From NCBI RefSeq assembly GCF_000521215.1, contig NZ_KI928919.1, positions 628,972 to 692,971 on the forward strand: a stretch of 64,000 nt of DNA, in the 5' to 3' direction. Origin of the DNA: Labrenzia sp. DG1229. Its GTDB lineage: Bacteria > Pseudomonadota > Alphaproteobacteria > Rhizobiales > Stappiaceae. Shown piece by piece: positions 25,270 to 53,367 of the stretch. The translations under genes and the position numbers were made by a program. The number at the start of each line of letters is the position of its first letter. Positions within the stretch are counted from its first letter, which is position 1. The notes beneath the pieces are model-generated. The model worked only from the letters and a program-made list of their open reading frames with translations. It did no database searches and had not been told where the DNA came from.

Positions 25270-25460
25270 CGAATCAACCCCCGGTACCCATGTACTCGTG
25301 CCGACGATTGCGCGGTAATTTTAATAAATGCTGAATTATCGAAGTTAGAGCGTTGAAATCAGTAATTTTTTCAAGAGTCAAAGCGTAATGCGAGAAAATC
25401 CCGAAACAGATACGAAGTATAACTCTCGTCAAATTTACATATGCCGTGTGCCGAAACGGA

Positions 25461-25488
25461 AGCGCCGCAGTCACTGGACCGCGGCGCT
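25461..25488 (-). terminator. hairpin downstream of msrA
   Basis: A perfect 8-bp G+C-rich stem (AGCGCCGC / GCGGCGCT) with a 12-base loop lies 33 bases downstream of the msrA stop on the minus strand. There is no T-run after it, so it is either a weak intrinsic terminator or a 3'-end stabiliser. Confidence 0.55.
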
Positions 25489-25520
25489 CTCGACTTCAGA
25501 CATCGTTTTCAGATCAACGG

Positions 25521-26174
25521 TCAGCTTGCGGCGGGGCACGCAACGCCGGTTCCCCCTATGCCGCAATATCCGGCAGGATTCTTGGCAAGATATTGCTGAT
25601 GATAGTCTTCAGCAAAATAGAATGTTTCCAGTTCCCGGATCTCCGTGGTGATCGAGGTGGAAACACCACCCTGATTCAGGGCTGCCTGGTAGGCATCCCG
25701 TGTCTTCTCGGCAAGAACGAGATCTTCTGGCGAATTTACATAGATTGCCGAGCGATACTGCGTACCTGTATCGTTGCCCTGACGCATGCCTTGCGTCGGA
25801 TCGTGACTTTCCCAGAACACCTTCAGCAGGTCTTCCAAACGAACCGTATCGGGATCATAGACGACAAGAACCGCTTCCGTGTGGCCCGTCCGGCCGGAGC
25901 AGGTTTCATTGTATGTGGGATTGGCGGTATGACCGCCCGCATAACCGACGGCGGTCACATGAACACCCGGCAGTTGCCAGAACAGCCTTTCGGCACCCCA
26001 GAAGCATCCCATGCCCAAAAGCACGGTCTTCATTCCGTCCGGATAAGGCCCGTTGAGAGACTTGCCGTTCACAAAATGCACTTCGGAAGGCGCGATCGCC
26101 ACCGTACGCCCGGGCAAGGCCTCTTCCTTTCCGGGCAAGGAGAACTTTTTGGACAACATGGTCATGAAGGACAT
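25521..26174 (-). CDS. msrA: peptide methionine sulfoxide reductase MsrA
   Basis: This is a 217-residue methionine-(S)-sulfoxide reductase that repairs oxidised proteins. The catalytic Cys57 is in G-M-G-C-F-W-G, followed by the conserved G-Y-A-G-G, T-G-H-T-E-A-V and Y-R-S-A-I-Y-V blocks. Two C-terminal Cys residues (G-Y-C-G-I-G-G and V-A-C-P-A) can act as resolving cysteines for thioredoxin recycling. The family's long-form N-terminal extension (about 45 residues) is present. GGGAG lies before the ATG chosen. It is cytoplasmic (no signal peptide). Confidence 0.97.
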
Positions 26175-26334
26175 TGCGGATCTCCCATAAGAACAGCCCC
26201 CTCCCCGGCAAACCACAGGGAAGGAGCTCTGTCACAATCATTGACCGCAATGTGGCGCACTCGCGCCAACATTCCAATAGGCATCACGCAGGAGTGTCCC
26301 CTGGCGCGCCGTCAATCCATTGCCGCCGGCTCAT

Positions 26335-26661
26335 TCAGGCGAACTGTGTCTGGTAACGCTGGCGCCTTGCGCCGAGCCACAAAAACAGCAGACCGAAAGG
26401 CGCGAATACCGCCCAGACCGGCCAGGTCATGAGTGTCAGCAGCACCGGATCCCAGAGAGCGGGATGGATGTGACGCTCGATGGCAGGCTGAAGGATCGGG
26501 AAAGTATCCGGGAAAAGATTGAACAGGAGTTGTCCCAATGGCTGGAGTTGAACCTGAGACTGGGCAATCGACGTGCTGGCGTCGGAGATGCCGGCAATAA
26601 TAGCGACGGCAAGCAATGCCAGTCCCGTCAGACGGAATATAAATTTCAATACGCTGAACAT
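26335..26661 (-). CDS. small two-helix membrane protein, hypothetical
   Basis: This 108-residue protein has two hydrophobic segments (about residues 5-24 and 70-95) separated by a stretch beginning S-T-S-I-A-Q-S-Q-V-Q-L. A basic R-R-Q-R-Y tail follows the second helix. The pattern resembles small conserved alphaproteobacterial inner-membrane proteins of unknown role. The chosen ATG starts just before the first helix; an in-frame ATG 21 codons upstream would add a hydrophilic leader. Confidence 0.7.
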   Translation of the reverse strand: MFSVLKFIFRLTGLALLAVAIIAGISDASTSIAQSQVQLQPLGQLLFNLFPDTFPILQPAIERHIHPALWDPVLLTLMTWPVWAVFAPFGLLFLWLGARRQRYQTQFA

Positions 26662-40542: not shown

Positions 40543-42600
40543 ATGTCAGGGACGCGAGACAACATGCCAACGAGCTATTTCACGACACAGAATCACGCCG
40601 GCTTCAAGAAGCGCGAGACGAATTCAATCAATGCCGAACGCCAAACGATGCGCTCCTGGGAGCAGTATGTTGAAGGTCGGCTGGATACCAATGAAATCGA
40701 ACGCGGACTTGCAGGTGTGCGACCGGAAATACTGAAGTCCTGGGATCGAAGCAAAGACCTCGGGATCAGTGCGCTGTCGCAAGCCTCTCCCAAAAAGCTT
40801 ACCGCTGAAAATATTTTCACGCTGACCCAGAAGAACCAGACACTTGTCATTGCCGCAAGGGCCGCTTTTGCACGACTCGCGCCGCATCTTGCCGAATCCG
40901 GAGCCATTTTGATCCTTACGGACAAGGATGGAACAATTATCGAGGCAATTGGTGATCCTGAGACAATAGACGCAGGGCGCGACATTCAGCTGGAAATCGG
41001 GGGCGTCTGGGCAGAAGGCGTCATCGGGACGAATGGTATCGGAACCGCATTGAGCACCGGGACGCCAGCCTACGTTCATGCATCTGAACATTTTTGCGTG
41101 GGCATCAAGGCATGGACTTGCGCTGCCGCGCCAATATTCGATCCCCTCGACAAGAGTATCGCCGGAGTACTGGATCTGTCCGGGCCGCCGGCCATTTTCC
41201 GGCCGCACAACCTTGCGCTTGTTGTTGCTGCGGCACGCGAGATTGAAATTGCTCTGGCAGAGGGACTGCGAGAAGAAAGGACGCTTCTTCTGGAAGCTCT
41301 CATCGACTCGCCTTCGACACACAGCAGCACCGACGGCATCGTTCTCCTCAACCGGGCTGGACGGATCGTTTACAACCGGAACACCGACAAGATTTCCTCC
41401 AGACGCAAGCAGGATCTTGTGATCGGCCGGAAGTTGCTGGCCATGAAACCGGAAATGACCGATGGACAACTTGCCGAAGCCATTCCACGTGAACTGGTCA
41501 TCAAGGGTGTCGAACTTCTCAAAACCGGCGGCGAAACCCGCGGTGCAGTTCTGATCCTGCCAGGCGACTCCCAATCAAAGAAACCCGCGGCCAGGTCCCA
41601 CAGTGTAAAAATTTCGGCCCGCAGCGGCGTCGAGGAAGATGAAATCGAGATTATCGGCAATTGCCCGAGGATGCTCGAAGCCATGGATTATGCGCGCCGG
41701 GCGGCAGAAGCAAATGTTACAGTTCTGGTTCAAGGGGAAACCGGCGTCGGCAAGGAACTGTTCGCCCGTCTGATTCACAGCCACCACAAGAAGAAAAACG
41801 CGCCTTATGTAGCTGTCAATTGCGCGGCCATTTCCAGCGACCTGATCGGTGGCGAACTGTTTGGGCATGTCGCCGGCGCTTTCACCGGTGCGTTGCGAGA
41901 AGGGAAGGTCGGCAAGTTCGAACTGGCCAACAGCGGTGTGATATGTCTCGACGAAATCGGCGACATGCCGCTGGAACTGCAATCTTATTTGCTTCGGACG
42001 CTGGAACAGCGAGCTGTCTATCGCATCGGATGCAACAGGCGGCGCGCAATTGATGTTCAGCTGGTCGCAATGACCAACCGAAATCTGCGCAACGACATCG
42101 AAGAAGGCAATTTTCGACGGGATCTCTTCTACAGGATCAGCGCGATTGTCATCGAAGTCCCGCCCCTTCGCGAAAGAGGCGACGACATTCAACTGCTTGT
42201 CGATCAGTTCAATGCGGTTTTATCGCGCAAGTTCGGGCGTCCTCTGCTGACCTTCGACGACAGCGCAAGAACGGCACTCGGCACCTATCGCTGGCCTGGA
42301 AACGTTCGCGAACTCAGAAACACCATCGAAAGACTGTGCCTGTTGGCAAAAAGCGAACGGATTTCCATGTGGGATCTTCCACCGGACATCACGTCCCCGG
42401 ATGACGATATGATCCTGCCAGCCGGCCACGTATCGGTACCTGCTGACAAGCTCAACCTCGATGACATTGAATCAATCGCGATACAGCGGACAATTGAACT
42501 TGAAAACGGGAATCTGTCCAAAGTTGCCGCCTCGTTGGGCATCTCACGCCCTACTCTCTATCGAAAGATAAAGTTATACGGGCTTGAACGAGGAAAATAG
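40543..42600 (+). CDS. mimR: sigma-54-dependent activator (MimR/AcoR type)
   Basis: This 685-residue bacterial enhancer-binding protein has an N-terminal GAF-type sensor region (about residues 90-270), a AAA+ domain with Walker A G-E-T-G-V-G-K-E near residue 397, the sigma-54 contact loop G-A-F-T-G-A, and L-D-E-I-G-D-M-P-L as Walker B. A C-terminal Fis-type helix-turn-helix ends it (L-S-K-V-A-A-S-L-G-I-S-R-P-T-L-Y-R-K). It is convergent with the monooxygenase operon, whose relatives in mycobacteria are controlled by MimR. The start could also be the ATG at 40564; neither has a strong ribosome-binding site. The effector is probably the monooxygenase substrate or its product. Confidence 0.92.
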   Translation: MSGTRDNMPTSYFTTQNHAGFKKRETNSINAERQTMRSWEQYVEGRLDTNEIERGLAGVRPEILKSWDRSKDLGISALSQASPKKLTAENIFTLTQKNQTLVIAARAAFARLAPHLAESGAILILTDKDGTIIEAIGDPETIDAGRDIQLEIGGVWAEGVIGTNGIGTALSTGTPAYVHASEHFCVGIKAWTCAAAPIFDPLDKSIAGVLDLSGPPAIFRPHNLALVVAAAREIEIALAEGLREERTLLLEALIDSPSTHSSTDGIVLLNRAGRIVYNRNTDKISSRRKQDLVIGRKLLAMKPEMTDGQLAEAIPRELVIKGVELLKTGGETRGAVLILPGDSQSKKPAARSHSVKISARSGVEEDEIEIIGNCPRMLEAMDYARRAAEANVTVLVQGETGVGKELFARLIHSHHKKKNAPYVAVNCAAISSDLIGGELFGHVAGAFTGALREGKVGKFELANSGVICLDEIGDMPLELQSYLLRTLEQRAVYRIGCNRRRAIDVQLVAMTNRNLRNDIEEGNFRRDLFYRISAIVIEVPPLRERGDDIQLLVDQFNAVLSRKFGRPLLTFDDSARTALGTYRWPGNVRELRNTIERLCLLAKSERISMWDLPPDITSPDDDMILPAGHVSVPADKLNLDDIESIAIQRTIELENGNLSKVAASLGISRPTLYRKIKLYGLERGK

Positions 42601-42723: not shown

Positions 42724-43767
42724 TTACGGAACGATCACGCCCCGGCCAGTGAACTTTCGGTTTTTGAAGTCGTCAATCGCGGTATTGATGTTGTCCAGTG
42801 AATACTCGGTGTAGTGCATCTTCACCAAGCCATCGGCATTCAGCTCCATCAATTCAACCAACTCGGTATAGTCTCCGACGAGGCTGCCGCCGATTTTTAT
42901 TTCGTTTACAACAAGTTCAACCGTTGGAACTTCGATCTGTCCGCCATACCCGACGACAATCAATTCTCCGCCCTGGCGAAGCAATTTCCAGCAGATGTTC
43001 TCCACGCCCAGCTCGCCGACAAAATCGATCACCACCTGGCTTCCACCGCCGGTGATATCTTTGATCTGTTCGATCAGGTCAGGCCCGCCGTCGAGCACAA
43101 CATCAGCGCCCAGGTCCCGGGCAAGTGCCTGTGCGCCCGGCTCACGATCCACCGCAATGACGCGAGCACCACAAAGATGTTTCAGACACTGGATCGCAAT
43201 ATGTCCCAGGCCCCCCACGCCCAGGACGGTGACATATGCTCCCGGGTACACGAGACCGGCTGCCCGTTTTGCCGCACGATAGGCGGTAATACCGGCATCT
43301 GCCATCGGCGCCACATCCAGAGGGGTGACATTGGTATTCAGTTTGATCAGGGAACTTTCGTTTGTCAGGAAATATTCCGCAAAACCGCCATCCAGTCCGA
43401 GCCCCGGAAACTGCCCGTGGTCGCAATACATGTCGTGGCCATACCGGCAATTCAGACAAATTCCGCAACTTCTATGCGGGTGTACGATCACCGCATCGCC
43501 AGGTTTTACGGATTTCACGTTGCTGCCGACATCTTCTACCCAACCGGCATTCTCGTGGCCCATAATGTATGGCAAGAGGTTCCCTTCGACATCCATGATG
43601 TCCTTCCACACACCTTCAATAATATGCAGGTCCGTGCGGCATAAGCCGGCCGCCCCCACTTTCACGACAACTTCATCAGCTGCATTGATTGTCGGCGGCG
43701 CAACATCCTCGATGTTGAGTTCGACATTCATTGCCGGGTCATATTCATAAAGCCTAGCAGCTTTCAT
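42724..43767 (-). CDS. zinc-dependent alcohol dehydrogenase of the monooxygenase operon
   Basis: This is a 347-residue medium-chain dehydrogenase. The catalytic zinc ligands are in G-L-C-R-T-D (Cys43 region) and G-H-E-N (His/Glu near 70). The structural zinc Cys cluster C-G-I-C-L-N-C-R-Y-G-H-D-M-Y-C lies near residues 100-114. The NAD-binding loop is G-V-G-G-L-G-H. As last gene of the operon it would oxidise the alcohol made by the monooxygenase, for example 2-propanol to acetone or another secondary alcohol. The equivalent gene accompanies propane monooxygenase operons in Rhodococcus and Mycobacterium. Confidence 0.94.
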   Translation of the reverse strand: MKAARLYEYDPAMNVELNIEDVAPPTINAADEVVVKVGAAGLCRTDLHIIEGVWKDIMDVEGNLLPYIMGHENAGWVEDVGSNVKSVKPGDAVIVHPHRSCGICLNCRYGHDMYCDHGQFPGLGLDGGFAEYFLTNESSLIKLNTNVTPLDVAPMADAGITAYRAAKRAAGLVYPGAYVTVLGVGGLGHIAIQCLKHLCGARVIAVDREPGAQALARDLGADVVLDGGPDLIEQIKDITGGGSQVVIDFVGELGVENICWKLLRQGGELIVVGYGGQIEVPTVELVVNEIKIGGSLVGDYTELVELMELNADGLVKMHYTEYSLDNINTAIDDFKNRKFTGRGVIVP

Positions 43768-43797
43768 AACAGGTTCCTTCCGCAGGAATGAGGTCGA

Positions 43798-43822
43798 CGG
43801 GCGCAGAACGCTAATGCGCCCG
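43798..43822 (-). other. intercistronic hairpin after the chaperonin gene
   Basis: CGGGCGCA and TGCGCCCG form a perfect 8-bp stem with a 9-base loop, 10 bases after the chaperonin stop and 30 bases before the dehydrogenase start. No T-run follows. It is one of three such hairpins inside the operon and may mark a processing or partial-termination point. Confidence 0.6.
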
Positions 43823-43832
43823 AATTGATTTC

Positions 43833-45473
43833 TTATGCGCGTCCCAGAAGTTCGGCCCCGCCACCCAGTGCCGGACCTGCGGTCGGATCCGCTTCGCCTT
43901 CTTCAAGGTCGCCGATCAGGGTTTCCGTGGTCAGTATCAGCGTCGCTACCGAGGTCGCATTTACCAACGCACTCGCCGTCACACGTACCGGGTCGATTAC
44001 GCCTGCTTCGAACATGTCCTGGAATTCGCCGATTTCGGCGTTGAACCCCTGTCCCGGCGCAGCGGACGTGACCGAGGCAACAACTGAATCGGCATCTGCA
44101 CCGGCGTTGCTGGCGATCCTGGCGACTGGCCGCGTCAATACCGAGCGAACGAGTTCGACACCGGTCCTGACATCTGCTTCGTTGTCCGAGGCGAGATCCT
44201 GCAGAACCCAGTCTATCTGCGCCAACGCCGTCCCGCCGCCGGCAACGACGCCATCCTCGGAAGCAGCCCTCACGGCCGAGAGCGCGTCATCAATCAGCTG
44301 GATCTTGCGTTTCTGTTCAACGGGCGTGAAACCACCAGCGTAGATGACGGCTGTTCCACCGGTCAGTTTGGACAAACGCTCACGCAGTTTGTCCTGCTCG
44401 ATGTTCGGCGGGGCAACCTCGATCTGACGTTGAACCTGAGCACGACGTGCGGCAACGAGATCCGGGTCTCCTTCGCCTTGAATGATGCTGGTCAACGATG
44501 CAGATACTCTCACCTTTCTCGCCCCACCCAACTGCTTGAGCGTCACGTCCTCGACCTTCTTGCCCAATCCTTTGGATATGACCTCGCCACCGGTGAGAAT
44601 TGCAAGATCGTCCATCATCGCTGAGCGCCAATGACCGTATTCTGGCGGGTGCACAATCAGGTATTTTCCGGGACCGCCGTCATCCAGCAGACTGACAACC
44701 ACTTCCGGTGCTATTTCCTCCGCTACAACAAGCAGGGGCCGACCGGCAGACTTGGCAATTTCACGCGCTTCGTGCAACACGTCCGGCGACGGGATCTTGT
44801 GATCCGTCATCAAGATCAACGGGTTCTCAAGAACGGCTTCCATCTGTTCCTGATCAGTCACCATGTGATGCGAGATGTAGCCGCGATCGAAGGAAATTCC
44901 CTCGATAATTTCCAACGTCGTGTCGATGGTCACGCCGAAGTCGGCAGAAATTATTCCGGTATTCCCGACGCGCTCGAAGGCTTCGGCAACCAGCGCTCCC
45001 AGTTCCGGATCCGATGCGGATACGCGCGCAACCGCTCTCAGGTATTCCGGATTTTGATCACAGGAGCGGGACGACTCGTCAAGACCTTCGACAATCTTTG
45101 AAACGGCAAGCTCAATACCTTTGCAAAGGTCGACGGGCTTGACGCCATTCGACGTGATCTCAACGCCCTTTTGTATCAGCGCGTTCGCCAGCACGATGGC
45201 GGTTGTCGTTCCGTCTCCCGCGACCTCGTTGGTTTGCATGCTCACTTCGCGTACGACCTGAGCCCCCATGTTTTCAAACCGATCGGTCAGTTCGATTTCC
45301 GAAGCAATCGTGACCCCGTCCCTGGACACGATCGGCGTCCCCACCGGTCGATCTATCATTGCATTGAGCCCCTTTGGCCCGAGCGTCGGCTCTACCGCTG
45401 CAGCAAGTTTCGCGACACCATTTGCCAGCGCAGAACGCGCACTTCCGTTATGGATGAGTAGCTTGGCCATCAT
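43833..45473 (-). CDS. mimG: divergent GroEL-like chaperonin dedicated to the monooxygenase (MimG type)
   Basis: This 546-residue group I chaperonin homologue keeps the ATPase motifs (T-L-G-P-K-G near 30, G-D-G-T-T-T near 86, and the A-G-G-G loop near 413) but is clearly divergent from housekeeping GroEL, begins L-L-I-H-N-G-S-A-R-S, and lacks the usual Gly-Gly-Met tail. No groES gene is adjacent. In mycobacteria the equivalent MimG is needed for productive folding of the monooxygenase large subunit in foreign hosts. A second ATG directly after the first (45470) is equally possible; AGGAG precedes both. Confidence 0.93.
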   Translation of the reverse strand: MMAKLLIHNGSARSALANGVAKLAAAVEPTLGPKGLNAMIDRPVGTPIVSRDGVTIASEIELTDRFENMGAQVVREVSMQTNEVAGDGTTTAIVLANALIQKGVEITSNGVKPVDLCKGIELAVSKIVEGLDESSRSCDQNPEYLRAVARVSASDPELGALVAEAFERVGNTGIISADFGVTIDTTLEIIEGISFDRGYISHHMVTDQEQMEAVLENPLILMTDHKIPSPDVLHEAREIAKSAGRPLLVVAEEIAPEVVVSLLDDGGPGKYLIVHPPEYGHWRSAMMDDLAILTGGEVISKGLGKKVEDVTLKQLGGARKVRVSASLTSIIQGEGDPDLVAARRAQVQRQIEVAPPNIEQDKLRERLSKLTGGTAVIYAGGFTPVEQKRKIQLIDDALSAVRAASEDGVVAGGGTALAQIDWVLQDLASDNEADVRTGVELVRSVLTRPVARIASNAGADADSVVASVTSAAPGQGFNAEIGEFQDMFEAGVIDPVRVTASALVNATSVATLILTTETLIGDLEEGEADPTAGPALGGGAELLGRA

Positions 45474-45526
45474 CTGTCTCCTTGAATTATTGAGCGCCGC
45501 ATGCAGCGCATCTGGCTCCGCCTGGC

Positions 45527-46324
45527 TTAGACAGACTCAAAACTTTTTGAGGGGACGCGCCCTTGAATGAAGTCCACCAGAGTGGGACCGTCAGGCCCGA
45601 TCTCGACTTCCTTGTAGCGGGTGTTGCTCAGTCCACGACAAAGTGCCCCGTTGAATTCCATGTTGATCCGCACGGATCTCAATTCGCTGAGGTGCTGGCG
45701 CAAGTTACCGGGTTCTATCTGCTCGCCGGTCCAGGTCACAAACGCCGGATCATCCGAACCGGAAACCAATTGGCGAGAAACCAGCAAGGAGCGGTAACGC
45801 GGTTTCTGCCTGACTTCTTCTTCGCCCTGAAACTCGATCAGGTCGAATTCCCGAAGTGTCATGGAAACGATTGCTTCTGCGGACAATCCAGCCTGCTGCA
45901 AGGCAAGCAGAACGGTTTCCTGCCGGCGTATGAAAGCCTTTTCAAGGAATTTGAGATTGACGCTCTCCAGCTCCTCGCCGTTGCAATATTTGGAGAAAAC
46001 CTCGTCAAAGCTGCAGCTTCCGTTGACACCCTCATTTACCTGAACGTCAAAGCAATGATCCATGAGCGTGACGGTAACCTCACGCACCCAGTTCAGTTTT
46101 TCCACTTCCTGCCGGATGCCGAACGCCATGAGAAAGGCGAAATTCGGAGAGCACCAGTAGGTAGGAAGTCGAAAATCGACTTCCACCTTTTCAGAAGCAA
46201 AAACCTCAACCCGTTCGACAAAACCCATATCGGTGATGGGTTCGTCGAGTTCTGGATCGGAGACATTTTCCAGCTGTTCCCAGACGGTCGTCGCCAATTC
46301 AGATTGTTGAATTTCCTTCAGCAT
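45527..46324 (-). CDS. DUF59/MIP18-like protein of the monooxygenase operon
   Basis: This 265-residue protein starts with a DUF59 (SufT/PaaD-like) domain: V-W-E-Q-L-E-N-V-S-D-P-E-L-D-E-P-I-T-D-M-G-F at about residues 12-33, with T-Y-W-C-S-P-N at 60-66. The C-terminal two thirds are specific to monooxygenase operons. DUF59 proteins help build Fe-S or di-iron sites, so it may assist metallation of the hydroxylase or of the reductase cluster. It begins 4 bases after the amidohydrolase stop. The function is inferred from domain and context. Confidence 0.85.
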   Translation of the reverse strand: MLKEIQQSELATTVWEQLENVSDPELDEPITDMGFVERVEVFASEKVEVDFRLPTYWCSPNFAFLMAFGIRQEVEKLNWVREVTVTLMDHCFDVQVNEGVNGSCSFDEVFSKYCNGEELESVNLKFLEKAFIRRQETVLLALQQAGLSAEAIVSMTLREFDLIEFQGEEEVRQKPRYRSLLVSRQLVSGSDDPAFVTWTGEQIEPGNLRQHLSELRSVRINMEFNGALCRGLSNTRYKEVEIGPDGPTLVDFIQGRVPSKSFESV

Positions 46325-46328
46325 CAAC

Positions 46329-47357
46329 TCACTCCGCTGCGACTTGAATTGGCGAAGCATTCAGTTGCTTGAGTTTCGCGGCGGCATCGATGCCGTACAG
46401 ACTTGCGGCGTTCAGGCCGAGTATCTTTTCCTTGACTTCGTCCGTGAGTTGAACGCCGCTGCGTTCTGCAGAAATGTCTTCCGGAATTTGATAGTTCCAG
46501 AGCTGGTCGACCAGCCATGCAGGTGTCCAGATTGCATAATCGGAACCGAACAGGATCTTGTCCTCTCCGACCCACCAAAGCAGTTCAGCCATAACCTCGC
46601 CGAAGTAACGGGGGCGGGAGTGGATGAACGGCAATGCAACGGCCAGGCCCGCGTAGACGTTTGTCTCCTGAGTGGCGATCCAGCAGAAATCATCAAGTCT
46701 TGGAAGACCGCAATGCTCGATGATCCAGTTCAGGTTCTGGAAATCAGTCGCCGCATAGTCGACATCGTGAACATCAAAGGCATCCTTGTTAAGCGGAATG
46801 ATCGTCGGACCCTTGTGAACATGGATGTTCCGGATCCCGAGTTTTTCGCAAAGCTCGAAACACTTGTAGGCTGCCGGATCATTCAGCGCCCAACCCTTGC
46901 TGTCTCCATTCCATTCAGCGGTGTACATTTTCACACCCTGAATATCGAAGTTTTCCTTCATGTAGTGGATGTATTCCAGCGCCTTTTCACCGTCACGCGG
47001 ATCGAATGTGCCATTGACGATGAAGCGTTCGGGGTGGCGGGACGCCATCTCGGAACTGCGTTCAATGCTGGAAAAGCCGTTCTTGTAAAAATCACTCAGA
47101 TAAGTCGACTGAATGATCGCCATGTCGTCCGGACCGTCAATAAACAGGTCGCGATACACATCGTCTGCAGTGTATTTTTCGAACTTGCTCTTTTCCCAAA
47201 GCTCCTCTGCAGGGCTCAGGTTGGTGTGATAGGCGTAAAAGCAATCAATGAACTGCTTGCCATGAACATTGGCCTGGTTTTCCGGGCTTCCATCCCAGAA
47301 GTGTGTGTGGCCATCGAGAACAAAAATCTCTCTTCCATCTTCGGTCTTATACATCAT
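46329..47357 (-). CDS. amidohydrolase-2 family protein of the monooxygenase operon
   Basis: This 342-residue metal-dependent hydrolase or decarboxylase of the amidohydrolase superfamily has the N-terminal D-G-H-T-H motif near residue 15, a central H-V-H near 178, H-C-G near 217 and the late F-G-S-D-Y metal Asp near 278. This is the usual TIM-barrel site. Homologues are conserved between the coupling-protein and chaperonin genes in propane monooxygenase operons, but their reaction is not established as far as I know. GGAGGAGC precedes two consecutive ATG codons. Confidence 0.9.
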   Translation of the reverse strand: MMYKTEDGREIFVLDGHTHFWDGSPENQANVHGKQFIDCFYAYHTNLSPAEELWEKSKFEKYTADDVYRDLFIDGPDDMAIIQSTYLSDFYKNGFSSIERSSEMASRHPERFIVNGTFDPRDGEKALEYIHYMKENFDIQGVKMYTAEWNGDSKGWALNDPAAYKCFELCEKLGIRNIHVHKGPTIIPLNKDAFDVHDVDYAATDFQNLNWIIEHCGLPRLDDFCWIATQETNVYAGLAVALPFIHSRPRYFGEVMAELLWWVGEDKILFGSDYAIWTPAWLVDQLWNYQIPEDISAERSGVQLTDEVKEKILGLNAASLYGIDAAAKLKQLNASPIQVAAE

Positions 47358-47399
47358 GCTCCTCCATCATTTTGCTTTACTTCCGGATATTAAGAGGGA

Positions 47400-47436
47400 G
47401 CCGCGGCGCGGTGGTCATGCACCGTCGCGCCGCGGC
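47400..47436 (-). other. intercistronic hairpin after the coupling-protein gene
   Basis: GCCGCGGCGCG (47400-47410) pairs perfectly with CGCGCCGCGGC (47426-47436), and the inner bases can extend the stem. It lies 7 bases after the coupling-protein stop and 42 before the amidohydrolase start. It is very stable but has no T-run, so it may protect the 3' end of a prmABCD-only message. Confidence 0.7.
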
Positions 47437-47443
47437 AATGGTG

Positions 47444-47815
47444 TCACTCGATGTATTCGAAGACTTCATCCATGTTGCCGAACAGGATGACCGTGTTGTC
47501 GTCAACACGGACCATTCGGCCATAGTGGGTTGACGTGTTGACCTCAAAGATTTCGGCAGTCATTTCACGACCTAGAAATTCGCCGATTTCATCCATCCTG
47601 AAGATCAGCTTGCCTTCACCGTCGATGCGGATTGTTGCGGGGTTGTAGGTCACGGTGACCTTGGGATCCTCGCCCATAAACTCGGCGATGGCGCGCGCTT
47701 CCACGCTATCGTTCATCGTGACACCACACTGGTGGGAAATTGTCCTCTCGAACTTGATCTCGTCCATCGACTTGAAAATGTTCTGCTTCGACGCGTCGCG
47801 AGCGATATTTGACAT
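47444..47815 (-). CDS. mimD: di-iron monooxygenase coupling (effector) protein
   Basis: This 123-residue protein is of the MmoB/DmpM family. It lacks cofactors and binds the hydroxylase to tune substrate access and electron transfer. The sequence shows the family pattern V-E-A-R-A-I-A-E-F-M-G near residue 42, V-T-V-T-Y-N-P-A-T-I-R-I-D-G-E-G-K and a terminal F-E-Y-I-E. It is 17 bases downstream of the small-subunit gene. Length (about 110-130) is usual. The gene letter follows the mimABCD/prmABCD order. Confidence 0.94.
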   Translation of the reverse strand: MSNIARDASKQNIFKSMDEIKFERTISHQCGVTMNDSVEARAIAEFMGEDPKVTVTYNPATIRIDGEGKLIFRMDEIGEFLGREMTAEIFEVNTSTHYGRMVRVDDNTVILFGNMDEVFEYIE

Positions 47816-47832
47816 GGTGAAATCTCCTATGA

Positions 47833-48898
47833 TTAGCGGCTGAGACCGAGTTCACCGAGGATCTGATCGATACGCTCGTGCGATACGGCTCTAACGTCTT
47901 CAAACGCGACGGGTTTTGAGTGGGGTTGCGACCAGATGGGTTGCAGGTTCTGCACGGCCTTTTCGGCAAGCTGGCCGTGCTTGGCGATCCAGGACTGAAA
48001 CAGTTTCCTGTTGTGGTCCGCGTGCTTTTCGTCGTTGACGAGCAGGAACATCAGGTCAATCGCGTTGGCGAGATTTCGTTCGTAATCCGCTTCGGCCGCC
48101 GAGATGACCGGAGGTGTGATGAAATCGTTGTTGGCTGCAGCCACCTGCATGAAGAAGCCGGAACGGATCAGCTCACCGACAAGAGGTTCGAAGATGATGT
48201 TGATCGCGAAGTATTGCTCAAGATAATCCTCGCTCCCCATGATCGCTTCAATTGCTTCACGCGTGGGCTGCCAGACTGGATCTTCAAGCCAGCTCTTCTT
48301 GCCGAGATCGTCGTCCCAACCATCGATATCCATGCCGATTTCGGCGAGATACAACGTAATGTCCTGAGCCAGACGCAACTTGTAGCTCGAGTTGGTGAGC
48401 GTCGCGTTGTTGATCATCTGCGTGTAACCATACCGCTGCGCCTGCATCAGCGACGTCCCGAGTCCGAATTCGGCATGTTTCCAGGCACCCAGATGTGCCT
48501 GCAGGACCCGGCACCAGGTTTTTGTCAAAGGCTGCCGGAGCGCCTGCCTTGCGCGCATTCGAAATGACGTTCTGCACCATCGTCACGATCTTGGACTGAC
48601 GTTGATAGTGCGTGCGTTCCCATTCCTGATCCGGTGCACGAAACGCGTGCCAGTTCGAGCTGAGCGCTGCCGTGTAGTCCTTCTGATAGGCACCACCGGC
48701 CTTGCCACCTTCAAACTCGATGATCCAGTCCTGGATCAGATAGCGTTCGGGATCGGGCTGCACGTCCACCGTGACGTCTTCATAGTGCGTTGCACGCTTC
48801 CCGCGCGGTTCAAAATAGTTGTACTTCCTGCTGTTTGATCCAACGAATGTCGCTGCGCCTGCAGCGCCGGATCCAACTGAACTTGATGTTGCAACCAT
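47833..48898 (-). pseudogene. mimC: di-iron monooxygenase hydroxylase small (beta) subunit, single-base frameshift
   Basis: Two overlapping frames together spell one complete small subunit of about 354 residues. The first frame (from ATG 48898, with GGAGG upstream) gives the N-terminal N-Y-F-E-P-R-G-K-R-A-T-H-Y-E-D-V-T and proceeds to A-P-A-A-F-D-K. The second then continues T-W-C-R-V-L-Q-A-H-L-G-A-W-K-H-A-E-F-G-L-G and runs to F-E-P-L-V-G-E-L and L-Q-P-I-W-S-Q-P, all typical of PrmC/MimC. The switch is at an A5 run (T at 48519-48523 on the plus strand), where four A would restore the frame at codon 126. It could be a sequencing error, a real mutation or a +1 recoding site. Without the beta subunit the enzyme should not assemble. 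Confidence 0.93.
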
Positions 48899-48948
48899 CG
48901 AAGTATTCCTCCCTGTGATAGTCCTTCAACTAGCGATCAGCCCGAATG

Positions 48949-50007
48949 TCAGTGGGCCGATGAACCGGTAGTTGGAGTGAATTTGTCGAAGAAAACCCGC
49001 TCGGTATCGAAATCGTGCATGAACAGAACCGGCGTCAGTGCGTCTATCATCGGCGGTGGCCCGCAGGCGTAGACGTCTCCTTCGCCATCGATACCCAACT
49101 CCTTCAGATGACGATCGACACATTCGTGTACGAAGCCCCGTTCACCTGTCCAGGTGCCGTCTTCTTCTGCATGGCTGAGGACAGGGATGAACTCGACGGA
49201 CGGATTTTTCTCCGTAATGTCCGTGATTTCCTTCATCTTGAAGAGATCATTCCGGGTGCGGGCGCCGTAGAAGAAGTGGACCGGCCGAGTTTCCCCACTG
49301 GCGAGGTGATCATTCAGGATTGACCAGACGGGTGACATTCCGGACCCCGCTCCAACTAGGATAAGTGGTCCTTCTCGTCCTTCCCTTCGGAAGCACATTC
49401 CGTAGGGTCCCGTGACCTGGACTTTGGCTCCGGCCTTGATCCCGCCTTCATCGAGTTCGTTGGAGAACTTTCCGTCGGGATACTTTTTGATGATGAAGGA
49501 GAGGTTTTCGGTTTCGCTCGGCGGATTTGCCATGGAGAACGAGCGTGTAATCGTCTCCCCCGCTTCCGTGGTGACCGTGATGTCGACATACTGTCCGGCC
49601 CAGAACTTGAGCGGCAAATGCAGTTTGATCTGAACGCCGCGGATATCATGCGTCAGTTTTTGAAAATCGACGATCTCGCCGGAAAATTCCTTTACCGGGA
49701 TCGACTTGGACAAAACTTCCTCGTCGTAGTTCAGCAGCTCTATTTCAATGTCGCTGAAGGCCAGCGTCCGGCACATAAGGACGTGACCGCTATCTCGCTC
49801 CATATCGTTCAGGGCGAATGTCGAGTAGTTCAGCATCTCGCTTTCGCCATCCAGCTGCACGCATTTGCAGGCAGAACATTGACCTTCCTTGCAGCCATGC
49901 GGCAGCGCAATTCCCTGACGAAATGCGGCATCGAGAATCGTTTCGTTCTCTGCCACCTCAAATTCCACACCTACCGGTTCCAGTCGGACATTGTAGGTTT
50001 CTGACAT
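48949..50007 (-). CDS. mimB: monooxygenase NADH oxidoreductase (ferredoxin + FAD domains)
   Basis: This 352-residue electron-transfer component has an N-terminal plant-type [2Fe-2S] ferredoxin domain with C-K-E-G-Q-C-S-A-C near residues 38-46 and a fourth Cys in V-L-M-C-R near 78. It is followed by an FAD-binding domain (T-R-S-F-S-M-A near 156) and an NADH-binding domain (V-G-A-G-S-G-M-S-P, C-G-P-P-P-M-I near 320). It moves electrons from NADH to the hydroxylase. The start at 50007 is fixed by ACGGAG upstream and by the natural domain start; the longer open frame overlaps the large-subunit gene. Confidence 0.96.
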   Translation of the reverse strand: MSETYNVRLEPVGVEFEVAENETILDAAFRQGIALPHGCKEGQCSACKCVQLDGESEMLNYSTFALNDMERDSGHVLMCRTLAFSDIEIELLNYDEEVLSKSIPVKEFSGEIVDFQKLTHDIRGVQIKLHLPLKFWAGQYVDITVTTEAGETITRSFSMANPPSETENLSFIIKKYPDGKFSNELDEGGIKAGAKVQVTGPYGMCFRREGREGPLILVGAGSGMSPVWSILNDHLASGETRPVHFFYGARTRNDLFKMKEITDITEKNPSVEFIPVLSHAEEDGTWTGERGFVHECVDRHLKELGIDGEGDVYACGPPPMIDALTPVLFMHDFDTERVFFDKFTPTTGSSAH

Positions 50008-50061
50008 CAGCTCAGTCTCCGTATTCCAATATGCCGTGGCGCGTCTCACGGACTTGGGAAA

Positions 50062-50085
50062 ACGGAGGCCATTTCTGGCCTCCGT
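50062..50085 (-). other. intercistronic hairpin after the large-subunit gene
   Basis: ACGGAGGCCA and TGGCCTCCGT form a perfect 10-bp stem with a 4-base loop. On the minus strand it begins 7 bases after the large-subunit stop and is followed by a short run of T (complement of A at 50059-50062). It resembles a weak intrinsic terminator or RNA-processing site, which would raise large-subunit mRNA over the reductase. Confidence 0.8.
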
Positions 50086-50092
50086 AATTGTC

Positions 50093-51757
50093 TTAGGTGC
50101 ATGGATTGATGGTGAAGCCCTTGCGGTACTCGCCCACATGCGCATCCCGCTCGGCATCGGACATTGCCCGCAATGCATTGAGGGGCGAAGCCAGCTGATG
50201 CCCGCGCACATGCTCAAGCTTCCACTGGTCCTTGTCGTCGAAACGCAGATGCGGCTGAGGCACCAGGGTTTCGCCGTCATCGCGGACAAAGTTGAGATCC
50301 TTGATCGCGTCGGCCAGGTCCCAGCCGTCGTAAACAGTTTCCCATTCACGCTTGCCGGAAAATTTGCCCATCGCCGGTGTCGGCCGGCCCTGATACTCGT
50401 CGGAGAAGGCGTCCACGGCGGTCCAACGGTCGAGTTCGTGCGCGAAGGTGTGCCATTTGCCATCGATCTGGTCGATCACCATGTCCTCACGGATGAGGCA
50501 CGGAACAAGGCATGACCAGCAACGGTGCGGATACACATATCCGGTCTCTTCATTGAAGGTGATTACCTTCTCGCCGGGCTTGCTGAGTTTTGCGTACCAC
50601 TTCCAGAAGTCGCCAAATTCGGCGTACCAACCCGGATACTTGTGCTCAAACCACTCGAAGTCCTTTTCGGTCTGGGCTTCGATCCGCCAGAAATTCACCG
50701 GCCAGCCGACAGCGAAGAACTGTGCGACCTTGTGGACGTATTTCTTGTCGGTGATACGCTTCCAGGCTTCCTGGACGTCATCGTGGTGGATCTTCACACC
50801 GTACTTTTCAAGCGGCAGCATGTAAGTCCGGTAATAGTCTTCAAAGATCCAGCGGTGCCACATCTCCGCGTAGGATTCTTTCTCCTTGTCGCGGTTGGTT
50901 GTGCCGTACTCGATGAACGTACCGATCGCCGCGTCGACAATGGCGTGGTTCTGCCAGAACGCGTAGCGGAGATCCCGCTCGAGAAGCAGGTGGTTTTCCG
51001 GCTCCTTGAGAGCTGCCATCAACAGGGAATGACCATTCCCGATATGACGGCTTTCATCCGACTGAACCGACAGGAACACGGTCGGCAGTGCATAGTCGCC
51101 ATTTCTTGCCGCCTCGGAAGGCATCGCAACGAAAAGGGTATTGGTGAATGCCGTTTCAGCGACAACCGTCAGATACATGCATGCAGCAGTCATGGTATCG
51201 CCGGTGATGAAGCCTTCACCGAATTGACGGCCGATCGTCGTGGCATAACACTTGCCGAAGGCTTCTTCGGTGATATCGAACCCGGCAGGGTCGATGTAGT
51301 TTTCCATGTACCACTTTTTCAGGTTCATCTGGATCGTGGAGTGACGGAACTCATCAACCATCTGCATTGTGAAGCCGGTACGAAGGTCCTCGCCCGGCGC
51401 CAGGCGGGCAACCATTGCCATGGACCGCGCGGCGGAGATTTCCGGAAAGGGAATGATCGCAAGGAAGAGCTTCATCCACTCGATCCAGCGCGGCTCCACA
51501 TTTCGGAACATGTCGCCGCGCAAAGCGGCATCCAAGGCGCCGTAGACACGATTGTCCTTTTCCTCTTCCATCGGGAAGTAGGAACGAAGCACCTGCTTCA
51601 TCGGATCGCGCGGAGCCTTGGTGATCTTGTAGTCGGTCGGAAATGTCGAGGCTTCCTGCACATAGGTAGGATTCCAACCGAGGTCAGATATTTTCTTGGT
51701 GGCCTCACCCACCGAGATGCCTCGTTGAGAGGTGATCTTGTTCAACGTTATTGCCAT
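50093..51757 (-). CDS. mimA: di-iron monooxygenase hydroxylase large (alpha) subunit
   Basis: This 554-residue catalytic subunit of a soluble di-iron monooxygenase contains the two D-E-x-R-H iron motifs (D-E-F-R-H near residue 136 and D-E-S-R-H near 232), each spaced from an upstream Glu as in the family. Length, gene order (alpha-reductase-beta-coupling) and accessory genes place it in the propane 2-monooxygenase/MimABCD group, which oxidises propane, acetone, methyl ethyl ketone or phenol. It is the first gene of the operon, with GGAGG before the ATG. Which substrate it prefers cannot be decided by eye. Confidence 0.95.
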   Translation of the reverse strand: MAITLNKITSQRGISVGEATKKISDLGWNPTYVQEASTFPTDYKITKAPRDPMKQVLRSYFPMEEEKDNRVYGALDAALRGDMFRNVEPRWIEWMKLFLAIIPFPEISAARSMAMVARLAPGEDLRTGFTMQMVDEFRHSTIQMNLKKWYMENYIDPAGFDITEEAFGKCYATTIGRQFGEGFITGDTMTAACMYLTVVAETAFTNTLFVAMPSEAARNGDYALPTVFLSVQSDESRHIGNGHSLLMAALKEPENHLLLERDLRYAFWQNHAIVDAAIGTFIEYGTTNRDKEKESYAEMWHRWIFEDYYRTYMLPLEKYGVKIHHDDVQEAWKRITDKKYVHKVAQFFAVGWPVNFWRIEAQTEKDFEWFEHKYPGWYAEFGDFWKWYAKLSKPGEKVITFNEETGYVYPHRCWSCLVPCLIREDMVIDQIDGKWHTFAHELDRWTAVDAFSDEYQGRPTPAMGKFSGKREWETVYDGWDLADAIKDLNFVRDDGETLVPQPHLRFDDKDQWKLEHVRGHQLASPLNALRAMSDAERDAHVGEYRKGFTINPCT

Positions 51758-52232: not shown

Positions 52233-52425
52233 TAGTTGTCCGCGCCAACTGATACATTTCTTGCGCCGGTCAGAAATGTTGTCATCCGTACTTGGTTTTT
52301 GATTGTCTTCAGACCAGAACATCGTAGAAATATCTGAACCCGGTCGCAGGCCGGTTATCGAACCTGCTGTCGCCCGCTCAACCTGCACCATGCCCCTCGG
52401 CGTCGATGCCCGGGGAAAGGAAGAA

Positions 52426-53367
52426 ATGAAGCTTGATAGGATATCTTTTGCAGGCTGCTATCGCGGTGCATCGCCCCAGTTGATCGCACACACCCAGCAG
52501 CTTTGGTCTGCAAGGGGATTGGATCTGGAAAGCACCTGGCTTCGGACGGTGGGATCCTTGCGAGGGTTCCGGGCCGCCGATTTTCCGGAAGAAGAAGACA
52601 GCAGTGCCCCGATGGATGCGTTTTTCCTGTTCGATCAGGCGATCATCTGGGTGGCTTCGCTTCACTCTGCAGCTAACTGCATTGCCTCACTACAGGATGT
52701 GCAGCTTGATCGTGCTCAATGGTCAAGTCTGCAGGCTGTCACCTATCGACTGATGGAACAGCTCGACGCTGTCCGGATGCTGTTTCTGTCGGACTTGCCG
52801 ATACCATCCATGCAGATCGCGCGTTCAATTTCGGAAGACGCTGACATGGCATTGGCATTTCTGATCCGTCGCAAACTTGCACAACGCTTTACGGCGTGCC
52901 GCACAACAGAAGAAGCAAACGAGTTCTGGCGGCGTCATATTTCAGGAGGTCGGGCGTTTCGTGTCGTTGCAGACCGGTTGTATGAAGTTGGTCTGGATTT
53001 CGGAAAGCAGGGAGACTATTCCGACTGGCGTCGCGACACGCTGGCGATATTGGGAACAGCCGCCCATACGTCGTTCCTCAGGCACTCACGCTCCGATGGT
53101 GCCGCGACAGAAAACGGGCAATTCAGGGATACCCATGACTGTCTGGAATTCGTGACGCTGCGACTTCACGAGATGTGCGCCTATTCAAATGTATTGCAGG
53201 AGCGGCTGTCGAAAGATCTGAAATACATCAGCAAACAACAGCCGCAGCCAGGCCTAAACCAGTCTCTTGCTATCTCGGCCGCAGCGATCAGCGAAATCAC
53301 CGTGGAGCACTGGCGCCGAACAGTTGCAAGAGATCCATTTGGATTGTCAGGTCACCCAGAGAGCTAG
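52426..53367 (+). CDS. hypothetical helical protein beside the monooxygenase operon
   Basis: I do not recognise this 313-residue, mainly helical cytoplasmic protein. The chosen ATG follows GGAAAGGAAG; in-frame starts at 52390 (ATG) or 52303 (TTG, no ribosome-binding site) are alternatives. Conserved-looking features are an R-S-I-S-E-D-A-D-M-A segment (about residue 130), F-W-R-R-H near 166 and R-L-H-E-M near 249. Its alternating amphipathic helices remind me of HEPN-like DUF5677 proteins, but I would not name it on that. Its end overlaps the convergent 62-residue gene by 4 bases. Confidence 0.75.
   Translation: MKLDRISFAGCYRGASPQLIAHTQQLWSARGLDLESTWLRTVGSLRGFRAADFPEEEDSSAPMDAFFLFDQAIIWVASLHSAANCIASLQDVQLDRAQWSSLQAVTYRLMEQLDAVRMLFLSDLPIPSMQIARSISEDADMALAFLIRRKLAQRFTACRTTEEANEFWRRHISGGRAFRVVADRLYEVGLDFGKQGDYSDWRRDTLAILGTAAHTSFLRHSRSDGAATENGQFRDTHDCLEFVTLRLHEMCAYSNVLQERLSKDLKYISKQQPQPGLNQSLAISAAAISEITVEHWRRTVARDPFGLSGHPES

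Follow-up and report, generated by a model that had tools for sequence, protein, structure and literature searches.

Does Labrenzia sp. DG1229 carry an inactivated soluble diiron monooxygenase, or is the enzyme broken only in the sequence record? The question arises in a stretch of 64,000 nucleotides (contig NZ_KI928919.1, positions 628,972 to 692,971; hereafter the window), where one extra base splits the reverse-strand gene for a MimC-like hydroxylase small (beta) subunit (47833-48898). The original prediction, that the N- and C-terminal parts lie in different frames meeting exactly at an A5 run (plus-strand T at 48519-48523), was confirmed in the sequence, where the reverse strand reads GCC TTT GAC AAA AAC CTG GTG across the junction. 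Upstream on that strand, an open reading frame of 204 aa (48284-48898) holds the N-terminal part, its residues 1-126 matching the relative Roseibium album (R. album) and the remainder being out of frame. The C-terminal part lies in a frame of 241 aa (47833-48558), of which 229 residues match R. album and the initial residues are out of frame. A Pfam search placed profile positions 1-68 of PF02332 in the first frame and 60-230 in the second, and the two are thus parts of one domain. No second PF02332 hydroxylase copy that could compensate was found outside the operon in a genome search (E <= 0.001).

The split gene is part of a MimABCD-like soluble diiron monooxygenase operon on the reverse strand (42724-51757), in the order large subunit, reductase, small subunit, coupling protein and then accessory genes. 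The MimA-like hydroxylase large subunit (50093-51757; PF02332) is similar to the alpha chains of methane monooxygenases in the PDB, and the MimB-like reductase (48949-50007) carries Fer2, FAD_binding_6 and NAD_binding_1 domains; its start was set at the MSETYN codon by inspection, and the query for the R. album comparison extended to 50015. Beyond the small subunit follow a MimD-like coupling/effector protein (47444-47815; PF02406), an amidohydrolase-like protein (46329-47357; PF04909), a 277-aa protein with an FeS_assembly_P domain (45527-46360; PF01883), a GroEL-like chaperonin that is MimG-like by position (43833-45473; PF00118 and NCBIfam GroEL models) and a zinc alcohol dehydrogenase (42724-43767; PF08240 and PF00107). 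All of these are intact and align to R. album without gaps, which bears out the claim that the rest of the operon is undamaged. Divergent from the operon, on the forward strand, lies the gene for a sigma-54-dependent activator (40543-42600; PF00158, GAF and HTH_8). The full MimABCD-type gene set, that is, both hydroxylase subunits, the reductase and the coupling protein, is thus present in one operon. The coupling protein scored 104.6 bits against the NCBIfam MimD model NF045941, below the curated cut-off of 150, and the exact subfamily and the substrate (propane/acetone) are therefore left as putative. We found no literature on propane monooxygenase in Roseibium.

A similar MimABCD/MimG gene cluster, for an acetone monooxygenase, has been described in the actinobacterium A. 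chiangmaiensis DSM 45062, and the Mim cluster was strongly induced in an actinobacterium grown on acetone or 2-hydroxyisobutyric acid (PMC7176365). The A. chiangmaiensis proteins MimA, MimB, MimC, MimD, MimG, Zn-ADH and the amidohydrolase-like protein are given there as 550, 348, 395, 131, 561, 342 and 349 aa, and the counterparts in the window measure 554, 352, 354 (the R. album value), 123, 546, 347 and 342 aa in the same order. Unlike that cluster, the operon in the window is alphaproteobacterial and its small-subunit gene is split in the record; it also includes the FeS_assembly_P gene, which is not among the A. chiangmaiensis genes compared here.

Comparison with the same gene in related strains shows that the site is ordinarily open. 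The nearest relative found, R. album CECT 5095, reads GACAAAACC where the window reads GACAAAAACC. With A4 at the run, its small-subunit frame spans 363 aa from stop to stop and 354 aa from the ATG, in agreement with the prediction that four A would restore a protein of normal length. A search of genome contigs yielded 254 relatives, and in the best 80 of these the site is open in frame at all 80 loci. In 78 of these 80 the A run at the site is at most 1-3 bases long, and the one relative among them that has A5 there reads through it in frame. Within the genus, the small-subunit gene is present in 7 of 45 genomes, the window's own included, and in the six other carriers it aligns as a single frame over all 354 residues.

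The broken gene is also conserved. It differs from R. album by 14 bases, every one of them synonymous, and both parts (126 and 229 residues) are identical to R. album in protein; on these two grounds we see no trace of decay in the gene. Judged by its sequence, the full reading frame was under selection until now or almost until now. Across 42724-51757, just two indels relative to R. album have a length that is not a multiple of three, namely the small-subunit break and an intergenic one at 45487. In the regulator, two one-base gaps of opposite sign lie a few bases apart. As a separate observation, the monooxygenase core genes (47444-51757), with DNA identities of 97.5-99.5% for the hydroxylase, reductase and coupling genes, are nearer to R. 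album than most long aligned stretches of the region (~95-96%).

To place the break in its context, approximately 392 kb of the window's genome was aligned to R. album and scanned for genes with an open frame in one of the two and a split frame in the other. In the window's genome six genes have one-base breaks: the small-subunit gene, rpoN, accC, cysG, an ABC substrate-binding gene and a subtilase gene (positions below are on contig C4, which carries the window). The rpoN break, a one-base deletion at about codon 52 (C4:575516) with a single N 44 bp away, was found in a separate comparison, taken into account for frames of 150 aa or more, having been missed by the coverage rule of the scan; 17 of 18 same-genus genomes have the gene whole, and the remaining one gives a partial match only. 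In accC (TIGR00514; ~C4:415448) one base is inserted; 16 of 18 same-genus relatives keep the gene whole, and in the other two it lies at the end of a contig or over separate contigs. The ABC substrate-binding gene has a one-base deletion (C4:727100) and is unsplit in 17 of the 18 genomes and not found in one, while the subtilase gene has a one-base insertion (C4:501468) and is unsplit in all eight of the 18 that hold a close copy. For cysG (~C4:833300) the comparison was with R. album only, and the run is one base shorter than there. Over the same ~392 kb, no R. album gene broken by one base was recognised, the end differences at C4:655186, C4:681364 and C4:786599 being set apart; through the first two of these indels, the window frames at 25388-26429 and 52303-53367 end or start differently in R. 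album. A reciprocal search gave five candidates, one of which is the subtilase locus, and the other four involve no recognisable gene broken in R. album. Six broken genes against none gives a two-sided p = 0.03, which is weak alone.

Several other apparent splits were rejected. The split at C4:920140 arises from an indel at the stop codon of an intact opposite-strand frame, and those at C4:803596, C4:684771 and C4:572699 lie against opposite-strand frames intact in both genomes. Two (C4:655656 and C4:441288) are upstream of the likely gene start, judged by eye, one (C4:862139) adjoins an ABC-ATPase frame intact in both genomes, and those in a biotin carboxylase (C4:319043) and an aldehyde dehydrogenase (C37:17499) coincide with N runs. 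In-frame stops follow a different pattern and are no less frequent in R. album: of 276 R. album frames, 17 are stopped in the window's genome, and of 278 frames from the window's genome, 26 are stopped in R. album. In most cases the stop sits close to the beginning of the frame, or there is an overlapping frame that both genomes keep intact. For three frames of the window's genome (C4:587982, 633915 and 698346), R. album has a stop past residue 100 and the check found no alternative frame that is whole in both genomes; these are not one-base breaks. When stretches of two further genomes (G037 and G039) served as outgroups, with 7-11 testable genes per genome, the sole break was that of the small-subunit gene.

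A genome-wide sample of two protein families gave a further measure. Aldedh and AMP-binding loci, with split pairs and one N-run pair merged by hand, were compared with those of three relatives. The window's genome has 37 Aldedh and 29 AMP-binding loci, of which one and three, respectively, are split, and in the relatives the matches number 36, 25 and 27 for Aldedh and 23, 23 and 39 for AMP-binding, with no split pair seen. Split loci thus number 4 of 66 here against 0 of 173 in the three relatives (Fisher one-sided p = 0.005); the four were counted without individual comparison to R. album orthologues, and they contain no N. In the aligned stretches of contig C4 there are six N runs, each of 407-534 bases, and four isolated Ns; the runs look like scaffold gaps, though they need not be such. 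The window itself contains no N and starts immediately after a run of 499 N (C4:628473-628971).

Frame breaks in conserved genes are therefore in excess in this assembly, and we infer that the small-subunit break is part of this assembly-wide excess, as nothing distinguishes it from the others. The product of accC, one of these genes, should be indispensable, so that, on this general knowledge, a gene needed for life is broken likewise in the same assembly. The nearest other match to AccC in the window's genome is 53% identical, and a second biotin carboxylase (C6:54049-55400) is likewise split, away from a nearby N run. With accC presumably indispensable yet broken, at least part of the breaks must be errors, while some of the others could be real. 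We therefore consider it highly probable that the additional A stems from a base-level error in the draft-assembly consensus. The small-subunit gene in the organism would then most likely have four A and encode a normal 354-aa protein, and with four A the monooxygenase operon would be intact. Of the three options originally proposed, a homopolymer sequencing error thus gains support, indirectly, from the one-base indels in other conserved genes. Points against it include the shortness of a run of four to five A and the mixed signs of the indels: the small-subunit, accC and subtilase genes each carry an extra base, and rpoN, the ABC gene and cysG each lack one.

Errors of this kind have a precedent in the first finished genome of Clostridium autoethanogenum, which contained ~240 one-base errors, with more than 90% of the discrepancies reported in homopolymers longer than 4 (PMC4687164). 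There, as here, single-base indels break conserved genes, some presumably needed for survival, and the errors described in that study are homopolymer under-calls, shown by Illumina and sampled Sanger sequencing. Unlike in that genome, the window's genome has both insertions and deletions, some of them outside homopolymers, and they are seen in the consensus sequence.

The second option, a real and very recent one-base insertion that inactivated the small subunit, and hence the monooxygenase, in this strain, appears unlikely. The break is, after all, present in the record, and the operon is accessory, as the few carriers within the genus indicate; rpoN is also broken in the record, and that break, if real, would silence a sigma-54-activated operon. 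These points are set against a gene without decay, in which even the differences from R. album are all silent, against neighbouring operon genes that align gap-free, and against the likewise broken accC, which should not be dispensable. The third option was a recoding or phase-variation site at the A5 run, which would let some ribosomes or polymerases, or some of the cells, make the full protein. It draws on the exact joining of the two frames at a homopolymer and on the conservation of both parts, but it fares poorly among the relatives: all of the best 80 of 254 are in frame, they share no common run or conserved shift site, and the lone A5 among them needs no shift. The shift needed would be +1 or -2, and the context C AAA AAC departs from A AAA AAC, a heptamer used for -1 shifts. 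The run has five bases, and a review places efficient transcriptional slippage in bacteria at stretches of nine A or T (PMC5009743). We regard such a site as exceedingly improbable. It is very unlikely, too, that the five A are real and reflect either +1 shifting on a short run of A or the joint early loss of the sigma-54 factor and an operon that it serves through its activator.

A consensus error thus remains the preferred reading, and with it there is no new biology at the small-subunit break. The case advises caution more generally, in that lone frameshifts in this assembly should not be taken as loss of function, since the same logic would call accC, rpoN and cysG lost. The monooxygenase operon of this strain is best regarded as probably functional.
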